DNA from: Leptospirillum ferrooxidans C2-3
Lineage (GTDB): Bacteria; Nitrospirota; Leptospirillia; Leptospirillales; Leptospirillaceae
Reading direction: 5' to 3'
Assembly (NCBI RefSeq): GCF_000284315.1
Contig: NC_017094.1
Span: forward strand, 899,486 to 963,485
Length of the DNA stretch: 64,000 nt
Shown here in pieces: positions 4,148 to 19,585 of this stretch; the first letter of the stretch is position 1, and each line of letters opens with the position of its first letter. The notes under the pieces were generated by a model. The model made no database searches and was not told the origin of the DNA. It saw nothing but the letters and a program-made list of their open reading frames with translations. Position numbers and translations under genes: made by a program.

Positions 4148-4150
4148 CTT

Positions 4151-4172
4151 AAGAACTGACTAGTCAGTTCTT
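4151..4172. promoter_or_regulatory. 22-bp perfect palindrome, probable TetR-family operator
   Basis: The two 11-base arms (AAGAACTGACT and its complement) form an uninterrupted perfect palindrome centred on CTAG. It sits directly downstream of a predicted promoter and 28 bases before the first gene of an operon whose second gene encodes a TetR-family regulator. Core sequences like ACTGACTAGTCAGT are typical of operators of TetR regulators that control efflux operons. Autorepression of the whole operon is the simplest reading. Confidence 0.75.
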
Positions 4173-4199
4173 GTTTGTCTTTTATTTAAGGGGATCGGA

Positions 4200-4949
4200 T
4201 TGAAAATGGCAGTTTTTTTACTCCTGAGGACAAGGTTCTTGTCCAGATCCATTATGACAATCTTGTCGATCATACTCCTTTTAGGTGTCTCCAATATTCC
4301 GGTGAATGCTGCCCCAACCTCTGCTCCCGTCACAGAGACACCATCTGCTCCAACGTCAGGATCTTCGACAAAAGCCCCTAGTGCCGCTGAGAACTGGAAT
4401 GCTCTAGATGAAGCCAGTTTTGATGAAAACTATGGTCATTTTGGTCTCTCTCTGGCCTTCCTGTTTAATATTGCCCAGACTCCATCCTCGCATCTTTTTT
4501 ATGAGAACGGTTTTGGTGGAATAGGGGAGATTTCCTATGGCATCTTGACTGGACTCAGGGTCATTGCGGGAGGCGGTTATGTCCTGAATTCTCCCCACTT
4601 TTCACCTCCTCTGAAGGGAGTTGGGAATAATGCGGACGCATCCTATGAACAAGGTTATGTTGGTAGTCGTCTGGCAATGAACCCCTTTTTTCCCTCCTTT
4701 TTCATTCATCAGCCATGGATTCCCTATATCAGAAGTGATGTTGGTGGGGTGAGTGCTGGAGTATCCGATGCTGGAGCTCTCTCCGGTCACCAAGATGGGG
4801 TCATGGCTGATCTTGGTCTCGGAATAGAAGGTCGGGCACCTGAATACCCCATCGGGTTTTTTGTGGAAGTTCGTTCCCAATGGTTTTTCCTGGGTCCTCA
4901 GACAGAGACTGTCATCCCTATTCTTGTGGGATCAACCTTTTATTTTTAG
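4200..4949 (+). CDS. Exported outer-membrane beta-barrel-like protein (paralogue of the 14594 gene)
   Basis: The 249-residue protein starts with a hydrophobic signal region followed by a low-complexity Ala/Pro/Ser/Thr stretch to about residue 65. The rest is Gly- and aromatic-rich, alternates polar and hydrophobic residues, and ends in aromatic FYF, all as in outer-membrane barrels. The C-terminal third matches the product at 14594 (PYIRSDVGGVSAG against PYLRFDVGGVDLA, then GALSGH against GGLSGH), so they are paralogues. The start is TTG at 4200 with AAGGGG six bases upstream; ATG at 4206 is an alternative. It is first in the operon behind the operator and has no assigned family. A role at the outer membrane in export is inferred from context. 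Confidence 0.75.
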   Translation: MKMAVFLLLRTRFLSRSIMTILSIILLLGVSNIPVNAAPTSAPVTETPSAPTSGSSTKAPSAAENWNALDEASFDENYGHFGLSLAFLFNIAQTPSSHLFYENGFGGIGEISYGILTGLRVIAGGGYVLNSPHFSPPLKGVGNNADASYEQGYVGSRLAMNPFFPSFFIHQPWIPYIRSDVGGVSAGVSDAGALSGHQDGVMADLGLGIEGRAPEYPIGFFVEVRSQWFFLGPQTETVIPILVGSTFYF

Positions 4950-4958
4950 GGGGGACAG

Positions 4959-5618
4959 ATGGTTGTTCAGGACAAGAAGTTAAATGAAATTGCCACCAGA
5001 GAGATTGCTTTTCAAATGGAGAAAGACCGCATTATTGACCAGGCGGCAAATTTGTTTGCCCAAAGGCGATATGATCAGGTAACGCTGGATGAACTAACGC
5101 AAATTCTGGGAATCGGGAAGGGGACTCTTTATCGTTATTTTACAAATAAGGAACAGCTGTATGCCGAGATCCTTGACATCGGACATCAGAAATTAATGGA
5201 GATTCTGAATGGAGTCAAAGATAGGGAAGATATGAATCCGCTTGAAAAGCTCTACGAGATGTCTTTTTCCATGGCTCACTTCATACGGTTGCATCTTGAC
5301 ATTTATAAGGTAATGGCAATTGAAGAGCCTAAAGAGCGTCAATGTTCAACAGAAAAGGTTCAACAATATCGAAAAGAGCGGATCCAAATGATCTCGGATG
5401 TTGTGCAGGAAGGACGTTTGCTGAATTATTTTCGGCAGGATATAGATATCACACTGTTTTCCCAAAGTCTGATGGGCTCCCTTTGGGTTGAGGCCATTTT
5501 TCCTTTGGGAGCTGTAGAAAAAGACGGTCGGCTGATATTGAGAATTGAAGAGATTATTTTTATGTTTCTGAAAGGCGTAGGGACGAATCAGAATTTTTTT
5601 AAAGGTCGGATGATATGA
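4959..5618 (+). CDS. TetR/AcrR-family transcriptional repressor
   Basis: The 219-residue protein has a typical TetR DNA-binding domain at about residues 25-75, including LFAQRRYDQVTLDEL and the recognition-helix region GIGKGTLYRYFTNKEQLY. The remainder is the helical ligand-binding domain. Such proteins repress efflux genes until a drug or metabolite binds. It begins nine bases after the preceding gene with AGGGGGG upstream, and its stop overlaps the ATG of the TolC gene (ATGA). It is therefore inside the operon it most likely controls through the palindrome at 4151-4172. The ligand cannot be told from sequence. Confidence 0.93.
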   Translation: MVVQDKKLNEIATREIAFQMEKDRIIDQAANLFAQRRYDQVTLDELTQILGIGKGTLYRYFTNKEQLYAEILDIGHQKLMEILNGVKDREDMNPLEKLYEMSFSMAHFIRLHLDIYKVMAIEEPKERQCSTEKVQQYRKERIQMISDVVQEGRLLNYFRQDIDITLFSQSLMGSLWVEAIFPLGAVEKDGRLILRIEEIIFMFLKGVGTNQNFFKGRMI

Positions 5619-7057
5619 TACGTTTATCCCCATTTCCCCTTAAAGTCCTTTTGATGTTGCTGTTCTCTTTTTGTGTTTGTTTTAAGATCATATGCTTGCC
5701 TAAAGAGCTTCATGCGGCTGAACTTCCTTCCCCCGGTGAAGGGGGGGCGGTAACGATTCCAAGCCAGCTGACTCTCCAGGATGCTATGGAAATTACTCTT
5801 CGCTCCCATCCTCAATATCGGCAGGCGATTCACACTTATCAGGCAAACAAGGAGATTATCGGCCAGGCTCTTTCCAATTATCTGCCGCATGTATCTGCTG
5901 GAGCCGGTTATACGTACGAAACGGGAAACTTTGTCATTTCTCCGGGCTTTCCTCCATCATTGTATTCGATCATTCAGCCTCCAAATAATACCGGTTACAA
6001 TTATTATCAAGCCCAGATTAATGTCTCGGAGACTCTTTTCACATTCGGACAACGAGTCACTCAGGTTCGTCAAGCGCGTTTTAATGCAAAATCTTCAGCT
6101 GATCAGGCGAGATGGACTCTCTATACTCTCTTGTCAAATGTTGAAATAGCTTATGATACCCTTGCAGAAGATGTTCTTCTCGTTGATGCCGCTCAAAAGA
6201 CACTGAAGGATTATGAAGAGCAGGAGCAGGTTGCCGAAGGGGAAAATCAGGTTGGAACCGCTTCCAAATTTGATGTTCTAAATGCTCAAGTGAATCGTTC
6301 GAATGCCCAGCTGAATCTGATCACAGCAAAAAATAATGTCAAAATCGCCAGAGTGGGACTTTTAAACGCAATGGGAGTCTCTTATGGTGGAGAGTTTCAT
6401 GTCATTCCATCCCTCGAATTTGATCTGATGAATGATGATTTGGATAAGCTTCTTATGAAGGCTATCAAGCATAGGCCAGATTTTATTTCGGCAAAGGATT
6501 CCGTAAACGCTAGTTGGCAAAATGAACTTTATTATAAAAGTACCTACCTCCCTTCGATCGGGGCAACCGGCGGGTATTCTTATGCAAGCATGTTTTTGCC
6601 GATGACCTATAACTGGTTTATGGGGGCGACGATCTCAGTTCCCATTTTTTCTGGCTTTCTGACCGTTCACCAAGTTGCACAGGCACAGAAGACGATGGCT
6701 GCATCACAGGATGCACTTGAATCGCTTCGCCAAAATGTCATCATGCAGGTCAAGCAGGACTTTTTTAACCTTAAGACTTCCGTTGAAAGAATCGATACAG
6801 TCAAAACTCTTTTGGAGCAGGCAAAAGAAAGTCTTCGCCTGGCGGAGGGGCAGTATCGGGTTGGTGTTGGTTCGGCTGTTGCTGTTACCCAGGCAGAGGC
6901 TGATCTTGCTTCAGCTCGAGCCCAGTTTGTCCAGTCTGTTTATGGGTATAAAATCGCCCGAGCAAATTTGATAAGGGACATCGGGATGGATCCACTTGCC
7001 CGCGTTGAGAATGGGAAACATGTCAACACTAAAAAAGAGGTTGTACTTCATGAATAA
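5615..7057 (+). CDS. TolC-family outer-membrane efflux protein
   Basis: The 480-residue protein has a signal peptide (hydrophobic to about residue 30) and then the duplicated helical/barrel pattern of the outer membrane efflux protein family. Examples are LTLQDAMEITLRSHPQ near residue 50, SETLFTFGQR, and LAEGQYRVGVGSAVAVTQAEADL in the C-terminal repeat. TolC proteins form the trimeric outer-membrane duct of tripartite pumps. Here it would serve the adaptor and RND pump encoded next. Its ATG overlaps the regulator stop by four bases. It is clearly related to the TolC protein at 13185 (shared TGNF, YYQAQ/FYQAQ and SETLF segments), consistent with a duplicated module. Confidence 0.94.
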   Translation: MIRLSPFPLKVLLMLLFSFCVCFKIICLPKELHAAELPSPGEGGAVTIPSQLTLQDAMEITLRSHPQYRQAIHTYQANKEIIGQALSNYLPHVSAGAGYTYETGNFVISPGFPPSLYSIIQPPNNTGYNYYQAQINVSETLFTFGQRVTQVRQARFNAKSSADQARWTLYTLLSNVEIAYDTLAEDVLLVDAAQKTLKDYEEQEQVAEGENQVGTASKFDVLNAQVNRSNAQLNLITAKNNVKIARVGLLNAMGVSYGGEFHVIPSLEFDLMNDDLDKLLMKAIKHRPDFISAKDSVNASWQNELYYKSTYLPSIGATGGYSYASMFLPMTYNWFMGATISVPIFSGFLTVHQVAQAQKTMAASQDALESLRQNVIMQVKQDFFNLKTSVERIDTVKTLLEQAKESLRLAEGQYRVGVGSAVAVTQAEADLASARAQFVQSVYGYKIARANLIRDIGMDPLARVENGKHVNTKKEVVLHE

Positions 7058-8168
7058 GACTGGAAAAAGGATAATGATTGCGGTTCTGGCGGGACTTCTC
7101 CTCGTGATCGGCTACCGATTCCTGCACCATACTGGCCATCAGAATGTCGTCACGAAAATGGGCCCCTCATCAGCTCGTGTATATGTATCCCATCCAGTTT
7201 TTGCACCGATTTCCCAATCCATTACCCTGACCGCTGATATTCAGCCCATTAATCAAGCCGCAATCTATTCACAGGTTAGTGGTTACCTGGATTCGATTTC
7301 AGTAAGAAGGGGATATCACGTTAAAAAAGGCCAAGTTCTGGCAAAAATTAACGATACAACCTATAGGGCACAGCTGCAGCAAGCTCAGGCAACCATGGAC
7401 TATACTTGCACAAACGCAGAGCGTTACAAGAAACTTGTTGCCAAAAATCTTGTGTCGCTTGATTCTTACGACTTGGCCAAGGAGCAGTGTGAACAATCCA
7501 AGGCTGCTGTTACTTATGCAAAAAAAAATCTGGCTTACACTGAAATAACGGCTCCTTTTAGTGGGTATATCTTCAACCGAATGGTTGACAAGGGTGCCAC
7601 TATCCCTGCAACCACTGGGGCAATTGCATCAGGCCAATCACCACTCTTTACGATCGTTGACGTCCACATTGTCAAAATTGTGATCAGTGTTCCAGAAAGT
7701 CAGGTCCGATTCCTTCATGTAGGACTCCCTCTGCAGGTGATGGTGGATGCTTATCCGGGAAAAGTTTTTCCGGGGAAAATCACAAGAATGAATCCGGCTC
7801 TGGATATCCAGACCCGAACGCTTGCTGTTGAAATTGATATGGACAATTTTTCCAGTCTTCTGAAGCCAGGAATGTTTGCGAGGGCGGTTCTCCTTTTACG
7901 GACAATACCACATGCATTGGTTGTTCCAAATGAGGCGCTGCTCAACCGGAACGGGAAGTATTACGTTTACAGTGTCGTGGGAGGTATTGCCCATCGAGTC
8001 AAAGTCAAGCTTGGTATTCGGGGAAAGAGACATGTTCAGGTCCTTTCCGGTATTTCACCAGAAGATGATGTTGTTGTTTTGGGACAACAACATCTGGCAG
8101 AGGGTGAGAAAGTAGATGCCAAGACCTATATAGTAGACTCTTTGTCTGATACTCACAGAAAGTCCTAA
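7050..8168 (+). CDS. RND efflux periplasmic adaptor (membrane fusion protein)
   Basis: The 372-residue protein has an N-terminal membrane anchor (IMIAVLAGLLLVIGYRF). It then shows the adaptor layout: a lipoyl-like half-motif (IYSQVSGYLDSISVRRG, KKGQVLAKIND), a short helical hairpin, the second lipoyl half (YTEITAPFSGYI), and a beta-barrel domain ending near VVPNEALL. These proteins join the inner-membrane pump to the TolC duct. I chose the ATG at 7050, preceded by AAGAGG nine bases away. An upstream in-frame start at 6996 would add residues inside the TolC gene and no signal. It overlaps the TolC stop by eight bases, and the RND gene follows after three bases. Confidence 0.95.
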   Translation: MNKTGKRIMIAVLAGLLLVIGYRFLHHTGHQNVVTKMGPSSARVYVSHPVFAPISQSITLTADIQPINQAAIYSQVSGYLDSISVRRGYHVKKGQVLAKINDTTYRAQLQQAQATMDYTCTNAERYKKLVAKNLVSLDSYDLAKEQCEQSKAAVTYAKKNLAYTEITAPFSGYIFNRMVDKGATIPATTGAIASGQSPLFTIVDVHIVKIVISVPESQVRFLHVGLPLQVMVDAYPGKVFPGKITRMNPALDIQTRTLAVEIDMDNFSSLLKPGMFARAVLLLRTIPHALVVPNEALLNRNGKYYVYSVVGGIAHRVKVKLGIRGKRHVQVLSGISPEDDVVVLGQQHLAEGEKVDAKTYIVDSLSDTHRKS

Positions 8169-8171
8169 GAA

Positions 8172-11100
8172 ATGTGGCTGACCAGACTTGCTCTTCGGAA
8201 CGCGATCGGTGTTCTGATGGCTTCCTTGGCGATCGTCTTGATCGGAGCACAGTCGGTCGCCAGACTACCAATCGATCTTTTTCCAAATCTTGCGGTTCCA
8301 GTGCTGATAATTGGGACTATTTATCCGGGAGCTTCTCCACTTGATGTGGAGCAAAGTGTTACTTACCCTCTCGAAAAGACCCTTTCAACAATCGATAATG
8401 TTTCCCATATACAGTCGCAGTCAAGAGAAGGAGTGTCTGCGATTCAAGTCTGGTTTAACTGGGGGGAAGACTTAAATGGGGGGATGGTCCAGGCCGTTCA
8501 GAAAATCAGTCAGATTCTGAATCAGCTACCTCCAGGCATCCAGCAGCCTTTTATCCTGAAGTTTGATATTGCCAATATTCCGGTTGTGTCCGTGACTGTA
8601 TCCGATCCTGCCCTTGATCAAGTCAAATTGTATGATCTTGCTTATAACACTATCGAGCCACAGCTTGAACAGCTGCCAAATGTTTCACAGGCGACCGTAA
8701 ATGGGGGGAAAGTTAGGCAGATCAATATCGATATGGATCCGCATCAACTTTTTGCGAGAAATCTCTCTATTATTCAGGTAGTGAATGCGATCAATGCTGC
8801 CAATCTCATTCTCCCGTCAGGGGATGTCAAGATTGGCTCGAAGGATTACAATCTTTTTACCAATAATCAAATCACCCACCATTTAGTCGATACTCTCTCA
8901 AATATTCCTGTCTCAACCCAAACGACTCCGGATGGAAGAATCGTTCCCATTTTCATCAAGGACTTTGCTAAGGTTTCTGACTCAGCTGAGACACAGACGA
9001 ATATTGTTCGGGTCAATGGACAAAATGCTGTTTATTTAGCAGTGAACAAACAGCCAGGGTCTAATACCGTGGGTGTTGTTGATGAGGTTAAAAAGGCCAT
9101 CCCGAAGCTTGTTGGGTTACCATCAGGAGTCCGACTGGATACTTTTTTTGATCAGTCGCAATATATTCGTCAGTCGATCAAAAGCTTATATCGGGAAATT
9201 TTTCAGGGCGCAATTCTCGCAATTCTGGTTATCCTTTTATTCCTTGGGGATATTTCAGCGACCGTCATTATCAGTCTGGCCATTCCTCTCTCTGCTCTTG
9301 TCGCATTAACTTTTCTTTCCTCATCCCATCAAACATTGAATGTTTTTACTTTTGGTGGGCTTGCTTTGGGGATAGGGCGACTCGTGGATGATTCAATCGT
9401 AGAGCTTGAGAATATTTACAGGCATTTTTCCATCGAAACAGAATCCCGTTCGATGGCTCTTTTGGGGGCGGCATCAGAAGTGGCTATGCCCATACTTGCC
9501 TCAACGATTACAACGGTCATTGTTTTCCTCCCCATTCTCTTCATGGAGGGGATTGGTAGACTTTTATTGACTCCGATGGCACTTACGATCACATTTGCTC
9601 TTTTTGCCTCATTTTTTGTATCCAGAACAGTAACGCCTCTTTTATGTTACCGATTTCTGAAAGTCCATAAATCTGTTTCCGAAGGTGTTTTGACCAAAGC
9701 TTTTTCATGGTTTAAAAGGGTCTTTTCCTCCATAGAGGAACGTTATGAAAAAGCTCTTTTGTATTCGATTCATCACAGGCGAAAAATTTTCCTTGGTGTG
9801 TTGAGTGTTTTTTTTGGTTCTTTGCCTCTGATTTATTTTATCGGGACAGAGTTTTTTCCTGCTCCTGATGAAAGTCAGTTTACAATTAATATTCAGGCTC
9901 CCCCTGGCACAAGAATTGAAATTACGACCCAGATTGCGAAAAAAATTGAAGATCTCATCCGGCAAACACTCCCCCCATCCGATGTCAGGCTCGTGGCTTC
10001 TAATATTGGTCTTCGCAATACGGCTGGGCGGGGAACTAATGGGGCTGCATCCGTTTTTACTGCCAATACAGGGCCTGATACAGGATTTGTCCAGGTTAAT
10101 CTTGTTGAACCCGATAAGAGAAGTGAGACAGCCGATCAGTTAATGGATAAAGTTCGCACTGCAATGCGAGGAAAGTTTCCCGGTGTGGGGATTTACTTTA
10201 TGCCAGGGGGATTGATTGAAAGAATTTTAAATTTTGGATACCAAGGGATTATCGATGTCGAGATTTATGGGTATGACCTGACCACAGCACAGCGTTTGGC
10301 AGATGTTCTCTCTCAAGGGATGCGCTCAATTTCGGGCGTTAAAGACGTTCAAGTTCTCCCCAATGACTTTCATTATCCAGAAATTGATGTTCAGGTTGAT
10401 CGGGTGAAAGCGGCCATGGTAGGGCTTTCCGAGCAGTCTATCGCATCAACTGTTTTATGGAGTTTTGTTGGAAACGAAAACAATCCATCAATTTATACGG
10501 ATCCGGCTACCGGGAATGAATATAATATTGTTGTACAGTTAGATCGTATTCACAGGCATTCGATGGAAGATCTTAAGAATGTATTTTTGACAAATGCGAA
10601 TGGTTCCCCGATTCTTTTGAGAGACGTTGCCACAATCCGTCAATCAAATGGTCCCAATGAAATAGATCGAAAAAAAATGACTCGTCTGATTACGATATCA
10701 GCCAATCCAGTAAACCGCTCTCTAGGGGATATCACGAAGGACCTGAAAGTCCTGCTTAAAAATACACCCCACCCGATCGGTTTTTCCGTTAAACTCTCCG
10801 GACAGATTGCTCAGCAAAAAGGGGCATTTCTATCTTTGGGTCTCGCCGTGTTGATGTCTATTCTGCTCGTCTATATGGTTCTTGCAACACAGTTTAGATC
10901 GCTTCTGGATCCCTTTGTCATCATGTTTTCGGTACCAATGAGTTTTACTGGAGTGATCTGGATCTTTTTTTTAACGGGAACTCCTTTTTCAACAATTGCC
11001 TTTATGGGAGTGATCATGACAGTAGGAATAGCCGTGAGCAATGGTGTTCTTTTGGTTGATTACACTAATCGATTGCAGCGGGAACATGGCCTTTCACTTG

Positions 11101-11366
11101 AGGACGCAGTTGTTCGAGCAGGGAAAACCCGACTTCGACCTGTTGTCATGACAAGCCTTGCGACGGTTGTTGGTCTTCTTCCCATGGCTCTTGGGCTTGA
11201 TATCGGGAGTTCCAATAGCCTGCCCCTGGCAAGGGCTGTTATTGGTGGCTTGACTCTTGCAACAGTCTTTACCCTGGTTTTGGTACCCACAGTTTATCTC
11301 TCTGTACACAAACGCTTTCCCTTGAAACAGCGCTCATCGGATGAGCTGAAATTTTTAGGGGAGTGA
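8172..11366 (+). CDS. RND-family inner-membrane efflux transporter (AcrB/HAE-like)
   Basis: The 1064-residue protein has the full RND layout: TM1 at residues ~10-30 followed by PIDLFPNLAVPVL, a large periplasmic loop, a block of TM helices from about 340, then the repeat in the second half. The proton-relay Asp pair is present in TM4 (GIGRLVDDSIVELEN). The lysine that AcrB carries in TM10 is replaced by Ser (GIAVSNGVLLVD), as in several non-AcrB subfamilies. It exports substrates from the periplasm or inner membrane with the adaptor and TolC encoded upstream. Substrate is unknown; the subtype looks more like the multidrug/lipophilic class than the metal class. Confidence 0.95.
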   Translation: MWLTRLALRNAIGVLMASLAIVLIGAQSVARLPIDLFPNLAVPVLIIGTIYPGASPLDVEQSVTYPLEKTLSTIDNVSHIQSQSREGVSAIQVWFNWGEDLNGGMVQAVQKISQILNQLPPGIQQPFILKFDIANIPVVSVTVSDPALDQVKLYDLAYNTIEPQLEQLPNVSQATVNGGKVRQINIDMDPHQLFARNLSIIQVVNAINAANLILPSGDVKIGSKDYNLFTNNQITHHLVDTLSNIPVSTQTTPDGRIVPIFIKDFAKVSDSAETQTNIVRVNGQNAVYLAVNKQPGSNTVGVVDEVKKAIPKLVGLPSGVRLDTFFDQSQYIRQSIKSLYREIFQGAILAILVILLFLGDISATVIISLAIPLSALVALTFLSSSHQTLNVFTFGGLALGIGRLVDDSIVELENIYRHFSIETESRSMALLGAASEVAMPILASTITTVIVFLPILFMEGIGRLLLTPMALTITFALFASFFVSRTVTPLLCYRFLKVHKSVSEGVLTKAFSWFKRVFSSIEERYEKALLYSIHHRRKIFLGVLSVFFGSLPLIYFIGTEFFPAPDESQFTINIQAPPGTRIEITTQIAKKIEDLIRQTLPPSDVRLVASNIGLRNTAGRGTNGAASVFTANTGPDTGFVQVNLVEPDKRSETADQLMDKVRTAMRGKFPGVGIYFMPGGLIERILNFGYQGIIDVEIYGYDLTTAQRLADVLSQGMRSISGVKDVQVLPNDFHYPEIDVQVDRVKAAMVGLSEQSIASTVLWSFVGNENNPSIYTDPATGNEYNIVVQLDRIHRHSMEDLKNVFLTNANGSPILLRDVATIRQSNGPNEIDRKKMTRLITISANPVNRSLGDITKDLKVLLKNTPHPIGFSVKLSGQIAQQKGAFLSLGLAVLMSILLVYMVLATQFRSLLDPFVIMFSVPMSFTGVIWIFFLTGTPFSTIAFMGVIMTVGIAVSNGVLLVDYTNRLQREHGLSLEDAVVRAGKTRLRPVVMTSLATVVGLLPMALGLDIGSSNSLPLARAVIGGLTLATVFTLVLVPTVYLSVHKRFPLKQRSSDELKFLGE

Positions 11367-11460
11367 TCTTTCTTTAAGTTTCTTCAACGGGTTTCGTCTG
11401 GTAAAATTGGGGTATAGATCTTATGAGACACTTCCATCAAGAACAGTCGAGGCTGGGGAG

Positions 11461-12051
11461 ATGAATATTATAGAGGTGAGGTTAGGAAAGGTTGCTCTGC
11501 AGAGTATTTTCCTTGGGCTGATTTCCTGTGGAGGGGTAATTGTGGCAGAAGGGGCCAATATCAGTTCTCTGCCTGCCGCGCCCAATTTTGTGGCTATTCC
11601 TCCGGTGACACCCTTTAATCCTTCTGGTGGGTCCCCTTTGGGGCAAACTCCCGGAGCTTTTGTGCCTCAACTGCCGAACTCATCTCTTCCGGTCGCGCCA
11701 TTGTCTGCCCCGATTATTCCACCTTCCCTTGGGTTGCCTCTTGGATCATTTTCTCCCGGGGCTCCTGTTTTATTCTCTCTTGGACCTCTATTGGGCGGAC
11801 CCATCCAGCAGGGAGCTGGTCTTTCAGCTCCCGTTCAGGCCTTTTCGATGGGGCCAGCGACCTTGCTCAATCAATTTGCTCAGCCCCCGCTTGTTCCCTA
11901 CGGACAGGTTGGTGTTCCTCCGGCTGCTTATAATCCTTCACTAGGAGGACAAGCCGGTAATCCCTTCGCTTTGACATGTAACTACTACTTTTTTGTGAAT
12001 TGCGGCGCGTCCGGTGGGCAAGCCCAAAACTTTAAATACTCAACCAGGTAA
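11461..12051 (+). CDS. Pro/Gly-rich exported protein of unknown function
   Basis: The 196-residue protein has a likely signal peptide (hydrophobic about 10-30, ending around VAEGA). An extended low-complexity chain rich in Pro, Gly, Ala, Leu and Ser follows, and the C-terminus has two Cys (LTCNYYFFVNCG) that could form a disulfide. No domain is recognised. It lies 94 bases after the RND gene on the same strand, so it may belong to the export operon or have its own promoter. I chose ATG 11461, which starts directly at the signal peptide; a TTG at 11407 would place 18 extra residues before it. It could be a surface or matrix protein, but function is unknown. Confidence 0.6.
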   Translation: MNIIEVRLGKVALQSIFLGLISCGGVIVAEGANISSLPAAPNFVAIPPVTPFNPSGGSPLGQTPGAFVPQLPNSSLPVAPLSAPIIPPSLGLPLGSFSPGAPVLFSLGPLLGGPIQQGAGLSAPVQAFSMGPATLLNQFAQPPLVPYGQVGVPPAAYNPSLGGQAGNPFALTCNYYFFVNCGASGGQAQNFKYSTR

Positions 12052-12069
12052 AGTGTTACGAGCAGATGG

Positions 12070-12990
12070 TCAAGTTTTTTCCATCCATCCTGATGTGAAG
12101 ATCCTTGTTCCCAACTTAACCAATGGTGCGGGTTCAGCATCGACCTCTTGACGTGTAATGGCGCAAAGTGTGGAATTCGCAAGGAAGTCAGGTAGTGAAA
12201 GTCCAATAATTGACCCACTATCAAGCTCATTTTTTGCTGCAGATGCGGGGAGGATTGTTATTCCTACTCCTGTCATGACAATTTTCAGGATGAGATCTGT
12301 GTCTGTTGTCTCCATCGTGACATTAAGCGAGAGTGCATTTTTTTGTGCTTCATAATCAATAAAGTCCCTTAACAGATTTTTTTTGTTGGGAAGAATGAGT
12401 GGGAAAGATTTGAGGGTGCCAACATCTCTTTGCCATTTTTCCTTTGAAATTGTTGGAGATGCCAAAATAAGCAAGTTTGAGGGGCCTCCAACCGGATGAA
12501 TGGATAGATGACTCAGTCCATTTTTGATATGGGGAGCATCTGGAACATGCGTGAGGATGATATCCGTTTTTCCGGCAAGGAGTTCAGAGATCATATCCTG
12601 ATCGAGTCCCTGATGAATGGAAACGGTAGCGTTTTTATACGTCCCGCGAACAAAAGATGTGAAGGGAGTATTCCGGGTGAATCCGGTGGCAAACCCAATG
12701 CCGACCGAAAGCTGTTCAACTTTTATGGCAGGCATTTTTTCTGTCATGATTTTGGATGTATTCTTGACTTGGTCCCATATGCTTTTTGCATGATCAAGAA
12801 AAAGAATTCCATTTGGAGATAAAAAAACCCTGCGGCCGACTCTATTAAAAAGTCTGACTCCAAACTCTTCTTCAAGGAGCTGGATTTGGGTCGACACGGC
12901 TGGTTGGGTCACTCCCAATATTTTAGCTGCCTGAGAAAAGTTCAAAGTTTGTGTCACAGTTAAAAAAGTGTGGATTTGGGAGAGTGTCAT
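12070..12990 (-). CDS. LysR-family transcriptional regulator
   Basis: The 306-residue protein has the N-terminal winged HTH of LysR regulators (TLSQIHTFLTVTQTLNFSQAAKILGVTQPAVSTQI) and a C-terminal substrate-binding-like domain. LysR proteins usually activate a divergent gene in response to a small molecule. Here the divergent neighbour is the TolC gene that opens the ABC-2 export operon. I chose the ATG at 12990, preceded by AAGGGA six bases away; an upstream in-frame start at 13035 has no such site. It is convergent with the preceding Pro/Gly-rich gene, with only 18 bases between their ends. The inducer is unknown. Confidence 0.93.
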   Translation of the reverse strand: MTLSQIHTFLTVTQTLNFSQAAKILGVTQPAVSTQIQLLEEEFGVRLFNRVGRRVFLSPNGILFLDHAKSIWDQVKNTSKIMTEKMPAIKVEQLSVGIGFATGFTRNTPFTSFVRGTYKNATVSIHQGLDQDMISELLAGKTDIILTHVPDAPHIKNGLSHLSIHPVGGPSNLLILASPTISKEKWQRDVGTLKSFPLILPNKKNLLRDFIDYEAQKNALSLNVTMETTDTDLILKIVMTGVGITILPASAAKNELDSGSIIGLSLPDFLANSTLCAITRQEVDAEPAPLVKLGTRIFTSGWMEKT

Positions 12991-13184
12991 AATGTGTCCC
13001 TTTTGGGTTTCAGTAACAATAAATGCTTTTAACATATTGAGTTAATAAGCATTGAAAGGATCTTTTTCATGCTTTTGTTCGATGGTATGATCAATATATG
13101 AATAAATTTTATCATGTAATTTCTGAAATGGAAAGAGACTTTTTCGTGGGAGTGGTGTTTTTTGATTAACTTGGTGAATAACCT
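12991..13184. promoter_or_regulatory. Divergent LysR / TolC intergenic region
   Basis: This is a 194-base AT-rich region between divergent genes. A possible plus-strand promoter is TTGTTC at 13075-13080 and TATGAA at 13097-13102, spaced 16. Around 13088-13115 there is a loose dyad (TGAT ... ATCA) with several T-N11-A matches, where a LysR protein could bind. These are weak matches; the arrangement is the main argument. Confidence 0.4.
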
Positions 13185-14597
13185 TTGAAAACAGATTGCA
13201 TGAATATGTTGGGCCGGAAGAACTATTTCCTTTCTTTGTTATTGTCATTGATGGTGTTTTTCCCTTACCAGTCAATCTCCTTTGCCTCGTCACCTGTCCC
13301 TGAATCCTCTTCCAACGACTCCGATCCGTCGCGTTATTATCTTCTGACATTGAGAAATGCTCTTGGCATGGCTGTTCGGGATCAGCCATTAATCAAGGCT
13401 GCTGAGGAAGGAGAAAATATTTCAATTGCTGGGGTTGGAATTGCCAAAAGCCAGTATTATCCTACCCTTAACGGCTCAACCACCTATACGAGGGAAACCG
13501 GTAATTTCGGACCCCAGCCCGGCTTTCCCTTTACCATTCCGGAATCTCCTGTTTCCTACGATTTTTATCAGGCACAACTCTCCTTGTCTGAGACACTCTT
13601 TGCCTTTGGTCGACGGCGGGCCCAGGTTGCCCAGAATAAAGAACTTGCAAGTGCCTCCCGTCGCCAGATAGAGGAAACCTTGTCAGAGACTATCCTGAAT
13701 GTCGAGAAGGCGTACTTTTCGGTACTGAGAGATCAAAACCTTGTTCAAGTTGACCGTCTGACAATAAAGGATATGGAACTCCAGCTGGCTGTAGCGAAAG
13801 CGCGCTTTTCGGATGGAGTCGCAAATGGATACGATGTTCTGAATGCAAGAGTGAATCTTTCGAATTTTCATTTGACAGAAGTGCAGGATGAAAACCATCT
13901 CAGAGTGGACGAGCTTGCCTTGAACCATGCAATGGGAGTTATTGGGCGATCACCATATCGAGTCGCCCCGGTCAACGATGCTTCTGTTGTGATACCGGAT
14001 GAGTCATCCGCTATCAGTCAGGCACTTTCCCGGAGGCCTGACTTGAGAGTTCTCAATAGTCAGCTTCGAGCCCAAGAGCAAGCTATCCGTTTCAATCAGG
14101 CTCAGTTTCTTCCCACCGTGACGCTTCTGGGGAACTACTCTTTTGATAGCGAATTCTTTCCACTTGTATACAACTGGTCGGCGGCTGCAACAGTCAATGT
14201 TCCAATTTTCAACGGTTTTTTAAATGTTGAGCAAGTGAGGCAATCGAGAGCCCAGAAGCGACAGCAAATTGATCAGAGGGAAGCATTACGGCAAACAATC
14301 GTGCAGGCCGTTGATAGTGATCTTTTAAACCTGAGAACGGATGCGGCCAAAATTCGGGATTCTTCCGTTCTGACTGATCAGGCGGTCAAGAACCTTGCTC
14401 TGGCTGAGGAGGAGTTTCGTGTTGGAACCGGGACAACCGTGGCTGTTTCCCAAGCAGAGAGGGATTTGGCCAGAGCAAGGGCTGGCCTCGTAAGGGATCG
14501 TTCTCAGCAATCTATTGATATGGCTCAGCTCAAGAAAGATATGGGAACAAATTTTGATTTTGGAAATCACAGAATCCCCTCTGGGCCTTTACCATGA
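13185..14597 (+). CDS. TolC-family outer-membrane efflux protein (ABC-2 export cluster)
   Basis: The 470-residue protein has a signal peptide (LSLLLSLMVFFPYQSISFAS) and the outer membrane efflux protein repeats (LTLRNALGMAVRDQP near 50, SETLFAFGRR, LAEEEFRVGTGTTVAVSQAERDL). It resembles the TolC protein at 5615 over its whole length. Its start is uncertain: TTG 13185 has GGTGA seven bases upstream, while ATG 13200 and 13206 are closer to the signal peptide. Its stop overlaps the next ATG (ATGA). No RND gene follows; the downstream transporter is ABC-2 type, so the duct probably serves an ABC exporter. Confidence 0.93.
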   Translation: MKTDCMNMLGRKNYFLSLLLSLMVFFPYQSISFASSPVPESSSNDSDPSRYYLLTLRNALGMAVRDQPLIKAAEEGENISIAGVGIAKSQYYPTLNGSTTYTRETGNFGPQPGFPFTIPESPVSYDFYQAQLSLSETLFAFGRRRAQVAQNKELASASRRQIEETLSETILNVEKAYFSVLRDQNLVQVDRLTIKDMELQLAVAKARFSDGVANGYDVLNARVNLSNFHLTEVQDENHLRVDELALNHAMGVIGRSPYRVAPVNDASVVIPDESSAISQALSRRPDLRVLNSQLRAQEQAIRFNQAQFLPTVTLLGNYSFDSEFFPLVYNWSAAATVNVPIFNGFLNVEQVRQSRAQKRQQIDQREALRQTIVQAVDSDLLNLRTDAAKIRDSSVLTDQAVKNLALAEEEFRVGTGTTVAVSQAERDLARARAGLVRDRSQQSIDMAQLKKDMGTNFDFGNHRIPSGPLP

Positions 14598-15328
14598 GAA
14601 CATGGTATGCCATCGTGCTTTGTTCTTCTTTTTTCTTTGGTATTTTTTTGAGTGCACCCAAGGCTGAGGCTGACCCCCCCTCTCCTTTTGTTCCTGAGGC
14701 TCCAATGGTGAAGCATCCCCCGACTGAATCCCCGTCAATTATGGATGGAGGAGGTTGGACTATTGCTCCCTTTGTCTCGTACTATACTCTAACAGGTGGC
14801 GGTGCTTCCCGTTATTTTAACAGCGCATTGGGAATCGGGGGCGAACTGGAAAAACCTCTCGCTGCTTCAATGTCTCATTGGCGATGGAATGTAGATGGAT
14901 CTTACCTTCAGATGACTCCGGGGCCGACTCTTTTTGTCACTTCTTCCCAGAATTCCCTGTTTGGACAGCCTACCCAGACCCCGATCCTATCTCCTGTTCC
15001 GGGCTCGGCAAGTATTACTGGGTGGATTCTGAGAACTGGCCTTGCAAGGGGCTTTCCCCAAATGCTTCCCGATGGATGGCTTGGGCACGGTGTTGTCATC
15101 CCTTATCTTCGTTTTGACGTTGGCGGGGTTGACCTAGCTGCAACAGGAGCGGGTGGCTTGTCTGGACACCCTTTCGGTGTTTCTGTTGACGGGGGAGCGG
15201 GTGTTTCTTTGAGGGTTCCTTCTTCTCCAATGGGTGTTTTTATGGAAATAACGCCTACCGAGATTCTGATTTCTGGGGAAGCACTGTTCATGACTCCCCT
15301 CACAGCGGGGATTACGTTCCATTTTTAA
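14594..15328 (+). CDS. Exported outer-membrane beta-barrel-like protein (paralogue of the 4200 gene)
   Basis: The 244-residue protein has a clear signal peptide (IVLCSSFFFGIFLSAPKAEA) and then a Gly/aromatic-rich barrel-like body ending in FHF. It shares the C-terminal pattern with the product at 4200 (PYLRFDVGGV, GGLSGH, GVFMEI against GFFVEV, and an aromatic end). Both genes are beside a TolC gene, here immediately downstream with a four-base overlap, at 4200 one gene upstream. No Pfam-type domain is recognised. A role as an accessory outer-membrane component of an exporter is an inference from this repeated linkage. Confidence 0.75.
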   Translation: MRTWYAIVLCSSFFFGIFLSAPKAEADPPSPFVPEAPMVKHPPTESPSIMDGGGWTIAPFVSYYTLTGGGASRYFNSALGIGGELEKPLAASMSHWRWNVDGSYLQMTPGPTLFVTSSQNSLFGQPTQTPILSPVPGSASITGWILRTGLARGFPQMLPDGWLGHGVVIPYLRFDVGGVDLAATGAGGLSGHPFGVSVDGGAGVSLRVPSSPMGVFMEITPTEILISGEALFMTPLTAGITFHF

Positions 15329-15382: not shown

Positions 15383-16021
15383 ATGGAAAAAGAGCCAATA
15401 GACGAGGATCGTCGAAGATTTGCCCAGATGGGTATTACTCAGGAGTCATTGGATCCGGGAAAGAAAAAAATATTTTACGCATTGGCATCGGTCGTAACAC
15501 TTGTTTTTCTTTCAGGGATTTTTTATACCGTTTTCTTTTATGTGACTCTTCCCAACCACCATACTCTTTCAAGACCCGGACAGCCCCAGGTTGACTCGGT
15601 TCCTTTGCCGGTTCCCCCTTCAACAATGTTTCCTGGGGTGGGGGCTTCTAAAAAAAGTATTTTGACTCAAGAGAATCGTTATTTTATTTCATCAGTTGGG
15701 GGGATTCGATCGGAAGGTGATGGCCTTACGCTGATTCTGACTCTTCATATCGAGCCGACGCTTGAAGGGGCAAATGGCATATCGCTTATCTTGTCCACTC
15801 CACCCCGGTGGGTCGATGGCAGCCAGGGGTCTATGGAGGGAACTCTGGATTGGGATAAGTCAAGGCTTTTGAAACCGGGAGAAACAGTGACTTTCCCCAT
15901 TCATTTTGTCAAAAAACCAAGAACTGGAAAGTTTGACCTTTATATTGGGTTTCTGGGAAATCAGGGAATGTCAAAAAAACGTTACCCCATACACTTCTCC
16001 GGCTTAAAGGTTCCTTCATGA
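15383..16021 (+). CDS. Single-pass membrane protein with a periplasmic beta-rich domain, unknown function
   Basis: The 212-residue protein has about 25 charged N-terminal residues, one transmembrane helix at about 29-52 (IFYALASVVTLVFLSGIFYTVFFY), a Pro-rich linker and a C-terminal domain of alternating beta-strand pattern (about 85-210). That is the topology of an inner-membrane-anchored periplasmic protein. It sits between the TolC/outer-membrane genes and the ABC ATPase, the place where an adaptor would be expected, but it has no lipoyl or hairpin motifs of the HlyD family. I do not recognise a family. Confidence 0.65.
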   Translation: MEKEPIDEDRRRFAQMGITQESLDPGKKKIFYALASVVTLVFLSGIFYTVFFYVTLPNHHTLSRPGQPQVDSVPLPVPPSTMFPGVGASKKSILTQENRYFISSVGGIRSEGDGLTLILTLHIEPTLEGANGISLILSTPPRWVDGSQGSMEGTLDWDKSRLLKPGETVTFPIHFVKKPRTGKFDLYIGFLGNQGMSKKRYPIHFSGLKVPS

Positions 16022-16039: not shown

Positions 16040-16792
16040 ATGCCTGATAAAACTGAGAGGGTTTTGGAAGCAAGGAATCTTTCCAAAACTTTCCTGAATG
16101 GATCCAAAATCGCTTTGGGTGGGGTAAGCCTGGATCTCTACAGAGGTGAAATCCTCTCGATTGTCGGACCAAATGGTGCTGGCAAGTCGACCCTTATTCA
16201 AATTCTTTTGGGACTTCTGCACCCGAATACCGGTTCCCTCAATATCCTTGGTGTTGATGCAATAAGACATAGGAGACTGATTGCCCACAGGATTAACTAT
16301 GCCTCGACAGACCTTTCCCTTCCATACTCTCTGACTGTTTTTGAAAATCTCAAGGTCTACTCATTCATTTATAATCTGGCAGATTGGAGAACGAAGGTTG
16401 ACTCTATTCTCTCGGATTTCGGCCTATCGGAGATTGCCAGTCGTCGGGTGGGAAGCCTTTCAACCGGACAGGTGGCGAAACTCGGAATAGCAAAAGCCCT
16501 TCTTACGGAACCGGAGATTCTTTTTCTTGATGAACCAACCGCAACGCTTGATCCTGAGGTGTCTGGACATCTGAGAGAATTCCTTAGAAAAAGGGTTCTT
16601 GATACAGGCATGTCTCTTTTGTACACCTCACACAACATGAGGGAAGTGGAGAGACTTTCTGATCGAATCATTCTTTTGGGAGGAGGAAAAATCATTAAAG
16701 AGGGAATGATTGGAGATCTTTTAAAAAGTAATTCTGCTGCTGATCTGGAATCTCTCTTTCTTGATACAGTCAAGAAAACGGCCTCATGGTAA
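16040..16792 (+). CDS. ABC-2 type exporter, ATP-binding subunit
   Basis: The 250-residue protein has Walker A GPNGAGKST at 43-51, signature LSTGQ in VGSLSTGQVAKLGIAKAL, Walker B ILFLDEPTATLDP, and the switch His in YTSHNM. This is the DrrA/CcmA-like class that powers ABC-2 exporters of drugs, lipids or polysaccharides. The usual Q-loop glutamine after the Walker A domain is not obvious (RINYASTDLSLPYSLTV). Its last seven bases overlap the start of the permease gene, so the two are translationally coupled. It belongs to the operon beginning at 13185. Substrate unknown. Confidence 0.93.
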   Translation: MPDKTERVLEARNLSKTFLNGSKIALGGVSLDLYRGEILSIVGPNGAGKSTLIQILLGLLHPNTGSLNILGVDAIRHRRLIAHRINYASTDLSLPYSLTVFENLKVYSFIYNLADWRTKVDSILSDFGLSEIASRRVGSLSTGQVAKLGIAKALLTEPEILFLDEPTATLDPEVSGHLREFLRKRVLDTGMSLLYTSHNMREVERLSDRIILLGGGKIIKEGMIGDLLKSNSAADLESLFLDTVKKTASW

Positions 16793-17613
16793 CGGACCGC
16801 ACCCGCCCCTCCATTTCCCTTTTTACAATAAGGCCAATGCTGGGTGTAATGCTGCGCCAATTTTATCTTTATCGGCGGAGCCTTCCAAGGTGGATGGAAA
16901 TCTTTTACTGGCCACTACTGGATCTTCTGGTCTGGGGATTCCTGACGCTGTATCTCAGGCAGGGATCCATTATTGCTTCTCATGCTGTTTACTCTCTTTT
17001 GGGAGCGCTTCTTCTTTGGGACATGCTTTACCGGTCGCAGCAGTCTATTTCAATGGTATTTCTTGAGGAAATCTGGTCAAGAAATCTTTATCACCTTCTG
17101 GTGAGTCCATTAACTCCTTATCACGTTATTTTTGGAGCAATCCTTACCGGAATTCTAAAGGTCTCTCTTTCTTCCGGGCTTGCGATTTTTTTGGCCTACC
17201 ATTTTTTTTCATTCTCTCTTTTTAGTATTGGTCTTTCTCTCATTCCTTTTATTTTGGCCCTTCTATGCATGGGGTGGGCACTTGGTATCCTGACAACAGC
17301 CCTGATATTGCGATTCGGTCAGGAAGCAGAGGTCCTGGCCTGGGGAGTGATTTTTCTCTTTCAGCCTGTCAGTGCTGTTTTTAATCCTGTTTCCGTTCTT
17401 CCGCCGGTTTTTAGAAATATTGCAATGTTTGTGCCCGCCTCCCATGTTTTTGAGGGGATGCGCCAAGTGGTCAATGGGGGCCGATTCCCCGGAGGACAGC
17501 TTATGGTGGCCTTTTTTCTGGATGGTTGCTACCTTTTTTTAGCTCTGATTGTTTTTGGTTGGGTAATGGCCAGAGCCAAAAGGGAAGGGTTTTCCTTGAA
17601 ACTTGGTGCATGA
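16786..17613 (+). CDS. ABC-2 type exporter, permease subunit
   Basis: The 275-residue protein has about six hydrophobic segments and the family signature region near its end (PASHVFEGMRQVVNGG), as in ABC-2 permeases of the DrrB/NodJ class. It forms the membrane part of the transporter with the ATPase encoded just upstream, overlapping by seven bases. With TolC and the exported barrel protein in the same operon, export across both membranes is possible, though ABC-2 pumps more often stop at the inner membrane or periplasm. The stop codon lies inside the terminator hairpin that ends the operon. Confidence 0.92.
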   Translation: MVTDRTRPSISLFTIRPMLGVMLRQFYLYRRSLPRWMEIFYWPLLDLLVWGFLTLYLRQGSIIASHAVYSLLGALLLWDMLYRSQQSISMVFLEEIWSRNLYHLLVSPLTPYHVIFGAILTGILKVSLSSGLAIFLAYHFFSFSLFSIGLSLIPFILALLCMGWALGILTTALILRFGQEAEVLAWGVIFLFQPVSAVFNPVSVLPPVFRNIAMFVPASHVFEGMRQVVNGGRFPGGQLMVAFFLDGCYLFLALIVFGWVMARAKREGFSLKLGA

Positions 17614-17636
17614 TGATGCACCAAGTTTTCTTTTTT
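17599..17636 (+). terminator. Rho-independent terminator ending the ABC-2 export operon
   Basis: A 13-base perfect stem (AAACTTGGTGCAT at 17599-17611, complement at 17616-17628) with a four-base loop is followed by a T-rich tract (TTTTCTTTTTT). The stop codon of the permease gene (17611-17613) lies within the hairpin. It is the clearest terminator in the window. Confidence 0.9.
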
Positions 17637-17724
17637 GAACCAGTTCCATCACGAGTCAGGTTCTGAGGCCTGTCCGAATGGACTTTTGTTTGACACCATC
17701 TTTTTCGCGGGAGATAATCCAACC

Positions 17725-18468
17725 ATGGCAAAGCGTGAAGTCGTCGAATGCCCTATCCTTTCGATCATTCCAGAGACACCAAGAGTGAACACTTATCGTC
17801 TGGGAGTGGGGGGAGGGGCTTTTTCATTTATGGCTGGACAGTTCCTTATGGCTTCTATCCCGGACTTTCTTCGTGAGGATGGGCGTCCTGTTAGACGAGC
17901 GTATTCCATTGCATCGTCTCCGCTTGATTTGATGGAAGGTTACCTTGATCTGACAATCACAAGAGTTGGAGAAGGTGGATATTTTTCCAACCGGATACAT
18001 GAATCGAAAGTAGATGACATTGTCCTGATTGAAGGGCCATACGGAAAAGCCTTTCATCTTGCCTATCCTCCTGAACGCTTTCCTGAAAGATACCTTTTTG
18101 TTGGTTCGGGAAGTGGCATTGCTCCTCTTCGGGCCATGATCCGCACTCTCCTGAAAGAAGGATGCCCAGTTCCAATAGAGCTCTTTTACGGTTATCGATA
18201 TGTTTCGGATTGTATTTATGAAGAGGAAATCAAAGAATGGATGAAAAAAGGAGTGAGTGTCCATCTTGCCATTTCCGGCTCTGTTTCTTCGGGGCAGGTT
18301 TTTAGCGGAGCATATGGGAGGGTTACGTCGATTCTTCCTGAACTGATTCCTTCCTATAATGGGCAGGAGGTCTTTATTTGTGGCCCTCCAGCGATGGTTG
18401 AGCAAACTGTCAGGTTTTTTCAGGATATCCCTTTTCCGGAAGAATCTGTTCACAAAGAGCAATGGTAG
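17725..18468 (+). CDS. Ferredoxin/flavodoxin-NADP+ reductase family oxidoreductase
   Basis: The 247-residue protein has the FAD-binding motif RRAYSIAS at about 57-64, the nicotinamide-binding GSGSGIAPLRAM at about 127-138, and CGPPAMVEQ near the C-terminus, ending in Trp like many FNRs. Such enzymes move electrons between NAD(P)H and ferredoxin or flavodoxin in the cytoplasm. I started it at the ATG at 17725; an upstream in-frame start at 17635 would extend into the terminator region. No ferredoxin gene is adjacent. Its partner and direction of electron flow are unknown. Confidence 0.9.
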   Translation: MAKREVVECPILSIIPETPRVNTYRLGVGGGAFSFMAGQFLMASIPDFLREDGRPVRRAYSIASSPLDLMEGYLDLTITRVGEGGYFSNRIHESKVDDIVLIEGPYGKAFHLAYPPERFPERYLFVGSGSGIAPLRAMIRTLLKEGCPVPIELFYGYRYVSDCIYEEEIKEWMKKGVSVHLAISGSVSSGQVFSGAYGRVTSILPELIPSYNGQEVFICGPPAMVEQTVRFFQDIPFPEESVHKEQW

Positions 18469-18565: not shown

Positions 18566-19585
18566 ATGACAGAGATTTTTGCCCAGATAAAGACTTCTCC
18601 AGATTCAAACCGTAAACCCTCCTCCTGGCGCTGGAATGTTGGTCTCGTTATTTTTTTGATGATGATCATTCCTAGCTCTGTCATGGTTATTTTGTATTAC
18701 CGGGAGGTCATGGCCACCTATTATGTCACCAGGAATCCGTTGCCAAAGTCCGCAAGGGATATGGCCTCGGGTCTCGATCAGATCATGATCTCTGATATCA
18801 GGGATACCCTGAACCTTGGAAATCAGCTTGCCAATCCAGCTATTCTCAAAAGCTCTGGGAGGATCCAAGATCTTTTGGGGAAGTATGTCCTTTCCGGCCA
18901 TCTCCAGCGATTTGGGGCTTGGGAAGTGACCGATCCATCCGGAAATATTCTGGGAGGGATTGGAAACAGAGGTCTGAATCCTCACCGCGGCCAGGCAGGG
19001 AGTCTTATCGCCGATCTAAAATCCGAAGGAGGAGCGGCAAGACTTTCCGAGCCGATCATTGACCCTGTCAACCATCTTGCGCTTCTCCTGTTGGCTGTTC
19101 CTATTCTCCATAGGGGCCAGACATCGGATGATCAACCGTTGGGCTATCTTGTCGGGATTGAGAATTTGTCAACAACACTTCATCCGTTCCTTTTTCAACC
19201 CCGGAAAAAAGGTGCTCCCGGTCTTTCCTATATCGCCTCCACTGATGGAGATATTTTGGCAAGTTCAAAAGAGCTACTCATTGGCCAAAATATGGGCAAT
19301 ATTGGTTTGGCATCGGTTTTGGAGCATTTTAAGCAAGGGTTCTCAGGAGGGTACAAGGCAGATATCAGAGGGAGCAAGTATCTTTTTGGAACAGCCTTGA
19401 TGAGTGATACCCAGGGAATCGCTCCCCACCCTTGGATGGTTGTTCTCCAGGCACCAGAGGATGTTGTGATGGTCAAAGCCAAGAGAATGAGATTTGTGAT
19501 GGATCTCGTTGCGTTCGTAGTGGCTCCAACACTATTTTGTGTGGACTTATTTTTTCTGTTCAGGAGCATACGCTCCAGTCGTTGA
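18566..19585 (+). CDS. Membrane protein with a Cache-like extracytoplasmic sensing domain, no output domain
   Basis: The 339-residue protein has a cytoplasmic N-terminus, TM1 at about 26-45 (LVIFLMMIIPSSVMVILYY), a roughly 260-residue extracytoplasmic region with PAS/Cache-like features (WEVTDPSGNILGGIG and later YIASTDGDILASSKELLIGQNMG), and TM2 at about 312-333, then only a few residues. This is the input half of a sensor kinase, cyclase or chemoreceptor without any HAMP, kinase or GGDEF part. The stop is followed immediately by a new gene in another context, so I see no sign of a frameshifted output domain. Function unknown; possibly it senses a ligand and passes the signal to a partner. 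Confidence 0.65.
   Translation: MTEIFAQIKTSPDSNRKPSSWRWNVGLVIFLMMIIPSSVMVILYYREVMATYYVTRNPLPKSARDMASGLDQIMISDIRDTLNLGNQLANPAILKSSGRIQDLLGKYVLSGHLQRFGAWEVTDPSGNILGGIGNRGLNPHRGQAGSLIADLKSEGGAARLSEPIIDPVNHLALLLLAVPILHRGQTSDDQPLGYLVGIENLSTTLHPFLFQPRKKGAPGLSYIASTDGDILASSKELLIGQNMGNIGLASVLEHFKQGFSGGYKADIRGSKYLFGTALMSDTQGIAPHPWMVVLQAPEDVVMVKAKRMRFVMDLVAFVVAPTLFCVDLFFLFRSIRSSR

Follow-up and report, generated by a model that had tools for sequence, protein, structure and literature searches.

A TolC–barrel gene pair present in two copies, one with an RND pump and one with an ABC-2 transporter, in Leptospirillum ferrooxidans and its family

Leptospirillum is an acid-mine bacterium that lives in strong acid. 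In a 64,000-nucleotide stretch of the Leptospirillum ferrooxidans C2-3 genome (NC_017094.1, positions 899,486 to 963,485; hereafter the window), the gene of a TolC-type outer-membrane channel and that of a small predicted outer-membrane beta-barrel, here called Bar, occur together twice. One pair, barrel A (BarA, 4200–4949) and TolC1 (5615–7057), accompanies a periplasmic adaptor and a resistance-nodulation-division (RND) pump, while the other, TolC2 (13185–14597) and barrel B (BarB, 14594–15328), accompanies an ATP-binding cassette (ABC) transporter of the ABC-2 type. Read from sequence, the anatomy of the locus, the duplication, the linkage of barrel to TolC and an operator-like site in front of BarA are solid, and the arrangement is a genuine variant of tripartite export that is conserved within, and specific to, this lineage. 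That Bar is a dedicated partner of TolC, and an accessory subunit of export, is plausible and the best reading, with a nearly even chance of being right.

The genome is a single contig of 2,559,538 bases, and all open reading frames listed in the first-pass annotation of the window were confirmed, with their coordinates. The gene order is BarA, TetR, TolC1, adaptor, RND pump, a proline-rich protein, LysR, TolC2, BarB, orf15383, ABC ATPase, ABC-2 permease, an FAD/NAD oxidoreductase and a membrane protein with a periplasmic domain, all on the forward strand except LysR. The two copies of the pair are arranged as mirror images, barrel–TolC on the RND side and TolC–barrel on the ABC side.

The two barrels are 41% identical across their C-terminal 76 residues (BLAST E 3e-15). 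A profile–profile comparison of their families, named in advance as a test on which the claim of paralogous barrels at 4200 and 14594 could fall, aligned 176 columns reaching the C-terminus with a probability of 99.1% and an E value of 4e-19. When the whole genome was searched with each profile, the sole second match of BarA (E up to 10) was BarB, and that of BarB (E<=0.001) was BarA. Judged by these comparisons, BarA and BarB are true homologues.

The paralogy also proposed for the TolC proteins at 5615 and 13185 was borne out. TolC1 and TolC2 share 36% identity across 451 residues (E 2e-86), and both match the Pfam family OEP (PF02321) in two stretches each, with 198 and 174 bits against a cut-off of 22. 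An earlier tree containing all TolCs of the genome had very long branches and left their relationship unresolved. Once the most divergent rows were taken out, a tree that also includes the nearest TolCs from elsewhere in the Nitrospirota and two further TolCs of the genome united the TolC1 and TolC2 groups as sister groups in one clade (support 100/97), and the alternative placement of TolC1 with the outside TolCs was rejected (p-AU 0.02 in the approximately unbiased test). Since the two are each other's closest relatives, the TolC–barrel pair was probably duplicated as a module in the ancestor of the Leptospirillaceae. The simplest history would be a single duplication before the family diversified, with the mirrored order requiring a rearrangement as well.

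To follow the pairs beyond this genome, we used profile searches of 246 genomes from the phylum and a pattern-based scan of 84,980 species. The barrel family was found in 20 of the 246 genomes, every one of them Leptospirillaceae. The BarA patterns (one scan, two short conserved stretches) hit solely genomes of the same family, and the relatives that carry a name are Leptospirillum sp. and Nitrospirae metagenome-assembled genomes. No barrel relative outside the Leptospirillaceae appeared in either search or in the surroundings of the 11 closest outside TolCs, and the notion of a new accessory component of tripartite export therefore has to be restricted to one bacterial family. Within that family, the expectation that homologues elsewhere would be linked to TolC held for every one found, wherever the contig allows a view, and the barrel–TolC arrangement is kept across five genera. 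BarB is present in 20 genomes, with TolC2 adjacent wherever the contig extends that far, and the overlap of 4 base pairs (bp) between the two genes of the window recurs in all relatives whose locus shows both. The RND orthologue is found in exactly the 18 genomes that have BarA and TolC1, and all three genes are absent from the same three genomes. Part of this joint absence comes from the genes forming one contiguous segment and from the incompleteness of metagenome-assembled genomes. Both pairs are found together in the family genomes with an assembled locus, one congeneric genome (G001, L031:949-19001) keeping pair 2 alone. There, LysR, TolC2, BarB, orf15383 and the ABC genes are present, and flagellar genes (flhB, flhA, flhF and a fliA-like gene, by eye) stand at the position of the absent RND unit; as this genome is 72% complete, the unit may have been relocated elsewhere in it. 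For one genome with 12 TolCs among about 2,500 genes, the chance that both barrels fall at most two genes from a TolC is roughly estimated at 4e-4.

All members of the barrel family carry an N-terminal hydrophobic segment, taken by eye for a signal peptide, then a Pro/Ser-rich tail, and they end in an invariant phenylalanine. The start of BarA is called at a TTG, with an ATG at 4206 as a possible alternative. A model of BarB built from a 15-sequence alignment (mean predicted local distance difference test score, pLDDT, 73) has eight strands, the short segments 213–219 and 222–226 being counted as one. Its best Foldseek matches in the PDB are OmpA (3e-6), NspA, a Dot/Icm porin and OmpX, with E values from 3e-6 to 4e-5; Ail and OmpW follow, and with OmpW the OmpW/OprG-type channels for small hydrophobic molecules. 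The structural matches share 9–14% identity with BarB. As a prediction, BarB thus has an eight-stranded, OmpA-like barrel fold and the terminal aromatic residue. Neither BarA nor BarB of the window matches PF13505 (OMP_b-brl), a family matched by 1 of 15 BarA relatives (6e-5) and by none of 15 BarB relatives. No peptidoglycan-binding domain was found in the Bar proteins, and a sequence search of the PDB with the barrels gave nothing significant.

On the RND side, pump, membrane-fusion adaptor and TolC lie in one operon. A TetR-family regulator (4959–5618; PF00440, E 3e-14) sits between BarA and TolC1, which refines the first-pass annotation, and overlaps TolC1 by 4 bp. The adaptor (RND_mfp, 7020–8168; TIGR01730, E 1.6e-75) belongs to a reading frame that opens at 6996, its start at 7020 being assumed, and is followed by the RND pump of the AcrB/AcrD/AcrF family (8172–11366; PF00873, E 5e-232). 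Orthologues of the pump were found in 17 other genomes at 74–82% identity. It corresponds to no named pump: the protein scores 652 bits against 1250 for RND_permease_2 and reaches no equivalog, and for every named NCBIfam equivalog the scores of RND and TolC stay far under the curated cut-off. TetR is part of the operon in five genomes. In most genomes without it the gap between BarA and TolC1 is 3–25 bp, negative values being due to over-long frame starts.

A perfect 22-bp palindrome, AAGAACTGACTAGTCAGTTCTT (4151–4172, no strand), lies 27 bp upstream of the BarA frame. It is the sole perfect palindrome with arms of at least 10 in the window, is matched nowhere else in the genome even with 3 mismatches allowed, and is of a size reached in 0 of 20,000 simulated intergenic stretches. 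Its core, ACTGAC-YR-GTCAGT, occurs once per locus and at the same position in each of the five genomes, from four genera, whose operon includes TetR. None of the family loci without an operon TetR has the exact core, and some of them carry a different palindrome there. Positions 4150–4173 also scan as a terminator, a reading we rejected as the main one because the sequence, and not just the stem, is kept before BarA in relatives with a divergent (purQ-like) upstream gene. A TetR gene with a palindromic operator-like site at the upstream end is the layout of a TetR-regulated efflux operon, and we infer that the palindrome is the site to which TetR binds. Because it lies just upstream of BarA, BarA appears as the first gene of this regulated operon, and a shared TetR-type operator supports a functional link between BarA and the RND pump.

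On the ABC side, a LysR-type regulator (12070–13035, reverse strand), divergent from TolC2 and kept in position within the family, is the obvious candidate regulator. Downstream of BarB are orf15383 (15383–16021), an ABC transporter ATPase (16040–16792; PF00005, E 7e-32) and an ABC-2 permease (16786–17613; PF12698, E 3.5e-10; PF01061, E 5e-8). The ATPase and the ABC2_membrane permease (16040–17613) lie beyond the end of the region that the first-pass annotation described, and its assignment of one copy to an adaptor and RND pump and the other to an ABC-2 transporter stands. The ABC unit has no HlyD/MacA-type adaptor of its own, the sole adaptor match of the cluster belonging to the RND unit. 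In every relative with an intact locus, orf15383 lies between BarB and the ABC ATPase. It is modeled as one transmembrane helix, a flexible linker and a periplasmic immunoglobulin-like (Ig-like) beta-sandwich, with weak, Ig-like fold matches (E at least 3e-3). None of its 14 members matches a Pfam family and no sequence relative was found in the PDB; among the 246 phylum genomes it is restricted to Leptospirillaceae, with an invariant PRWVD motif. This protein is the best candidate for an adaptor substitute linking the ABC transporter to TolC2. A possible alternative is that the ABC-2 unit shares the adaptor of the RND unit.

Together, these observations suggest a model in which a TolC and Bar gene pair was duplicated in the family ancestor, one copy now working with the adaptor and RND pump and the second with the ABC-2 transporter. 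Bar would be secreted and fold into an eight-stranded barrel like that of OmpA, its proline-rich tail lying on the periplasmic side. Barrels with eight strands are expected to have both ends in the periplasm and are too narrow for export. Bar would therefore hardly be a second exit duct, and its likeliest role is that of an anchor, stabilizer or assembly partner: beside its own TolC, it may anchor or orient the channel or assist its assembly at very low pH. Part of the adaptor's job in the ABC-2 unit probably falls to the single-helix Ig-like protein. A more far-reaching version, a four-part export system in which Bar is an obligate TolC subunit for both RND and ABC-2 transport and the helix-anchored Ig-like protein replaces the adaptor in the ABC-2 version, is in our judgment unlikely.

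We also looked for traces of a Bar–TolC contact. A loop motif, E[TS]GNFxxxPG[FI]P, is common to TolC1 and TolC2 and absent from other TolCs, and their extracellular loop 1 is unusually conserved. We rejected this conservation as a footprint of the barrel, because this loop is equally conserved in barrel-less TolC paralogues of the family. A compensation for a missing lipid, in the manner of YbjP, likewise found no support: the window's TolC1 and TolC2 carry no lipobox, and neither do the other TolC rows compared (some of their starts may be wrong). As a separate observation, other Leptospirillaceae TolC paralogues have an unusually conserved loop 1 of their own, YGNSxFGxFLxPGYxY, unlike other Nitrospirota TolCs and perhaps tied to very low pH.

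Several points weigh against a dedicated Bar–TolC partnership. Loop 1 is as conserved, with another sequence, in two barrel-less Leptospirillaceae TolC groups (a few rows of which are wrong reading frames). In BarB, extracellular and periplasmic loops show no contrast, and the loops overall are not conserved above the strands. The fold model is of moderate quality and covers BarB only, and contact between Bar and TolC is putative. Other TolCs of the same genome have no such barrel, and the closest outside TolCs, which lie in RND/MacAB clusters, have no barrel of the Bar family; TolC therefore has no general need of Bar. As for the first-pass proposal that the barrel is a module partner of TolC, the tree adds support through the duplication and the operator through the link of BarA to the RND pump, whereas the support sought from loop conservation failed its control.

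These points give weight to another explanation, in which Bar is a small OmpA/OmpW-like protein that is co-regulated with the pumps, is no part of them, and tunes outer-membrane permeability or surface upon induction. The proteins matched in fold (OmpA, NspA, OmpX, Ail, OmpW) are small barrels of a general kind, a BarA that heads a TetR-controlled operon fits co-regulation without contact, and an interface signal could not be isolated from the conservation comparisons. However, co-regulation alone accounts less readily for two copies that are each kept next to a sister TolC although their pumps differ and so do their regulators (TetR and LysR), and Bar was never found apart from TolC; the other weak small-barrel candidates of the genome, at 241 kb, 385 kb and 800 kb, are not adjacent to TolC. 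We regard this explanation as a real possibility, though somewhat improbable.

It could also be that the TolC–Bar segment was duplicated once and its order kept by inertia, with Bar and TolC as neighbors that have no functional link. The whole neighborhood is syntenic across the family, so a single inherited event accounts for part of the linkage seen in many genomes, and the two copies stand in mirrored order. Against mere inertia, the barrels have diverged to about 37–61% between genera, yet adjacency and the 4-bp overlap endure; the pairs have persisted through gains or losses of TetR, of the RND unit and of the proline-rich gene around them, and the palindrome upstream of BarA is retained in four genera. 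Such hitchhiking is improbable. Even less credible, to the point that we give it little weight, is a Bar that is itself a small pore or substrate-binding protein, for example in uptake or sensing of a pump substrate. OmpW/OprG-type channels are among its fold matches, but OmpA, NspA and OmpX match better than OmpW, and no channel-specific feature was found in a model of moderate quality.

Further features surround the two units. A proline/glycine-rich, secreted-looking protein with no assigned function (11407–12051) lies between the RND gene and LysR and is found within the genus only. Downstream of the ABC-2 genes, in most relatives, follow a ferredoxin reductase-like FAD/NAD oxidoreductase (17635–18468) and a membrane protein (18566–19585) with two hydrophobic helices around a periplasmic domain, dCache-like by eye; the latter has no Pfam match and no output domain. 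A second RND pump of the window (37540–40725, reverse strand) shares about 35% identity with the first. The closest TolCs in other Nitrospirota lie in tandem RND and MacAB clusters with TetR, an arrangement that suggests that RND and ABC pumps use one TolC in common.

Taken together, the two units look like TolC-dependent export to which a barrel in the outer membrane has been added. Compared with known systems, the RND unit resembles AcrAB-TolC and other HAE-type RND systems in having TolC, adaptor, pump and a TetR-family regulator in one operon, and differs in the outer-membrane barrel gene at its head. The ABC-2 unit, like MacAB-TolC and other TolC-dependent ABC exporters, combines an ABC transporter with its own TolC gene; unlike MacAB-TolC, it has a separate ATPase and ABC-2 permease, no MacB, and an Ig-like single-helix protein at the place of the adaptor. 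The predicted fold of BarB is that of OmpA, OmpX and NspA, whereas Bar is operonic with TolC, lacks the OmpA peptidoglycan domain and, in the window, has no PF13505 match. Small barrels have also been modeled in situ with an envelope-spanning export machine in the Dot/Icm porins of Legionella (PDB 9nh1, 9nh2). The BarB model matches Dot/Icm porin III (9nh2), although that machine is a type IV secretion system and there is no sequence relationship. In L. ferriphilum adapting to salt, some TolC genes shift in the direction opposite to others, and RND genes change along with one of them (PMC9053815). Our literature searches, mostly of titles and abstracts, returned no published description of these barrels.

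To our knowledge, TolC-type channels were long regarded as having no outer-membrane partner, a view that changed when E. coli TolC was found to carry YbjP. This lipoprotein binds TolC in the MacAB and AcrAB pumps of E. coli, is limited to some Enterobacterales and is dispensable for efflux under standard conditions (PMC13082787). If the role proposed for Bar is true, both would be lineage-restricted outer-membrane partners of TolC for RND and ABC pumps (PMC13082787, PMC13095208). YbjP, a DUF3828 lipoprotein, sits on TolC's periplasmic face, whereas Bar, a putative partner, is a predicted transmembrane barrel that is encoded and duplicated with TolC. An ABC-2/TolC exporter without a classical adaptor would depart from the tripartite rule. 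A barrel encoded twice with TolC would, if the partnership is true, give an independent example of an outer-membrane partner, one more tightly linked to its channel genetically, and Bar would allow one to ask what TolC partners do, be it anchoring, assembly or acid protection.

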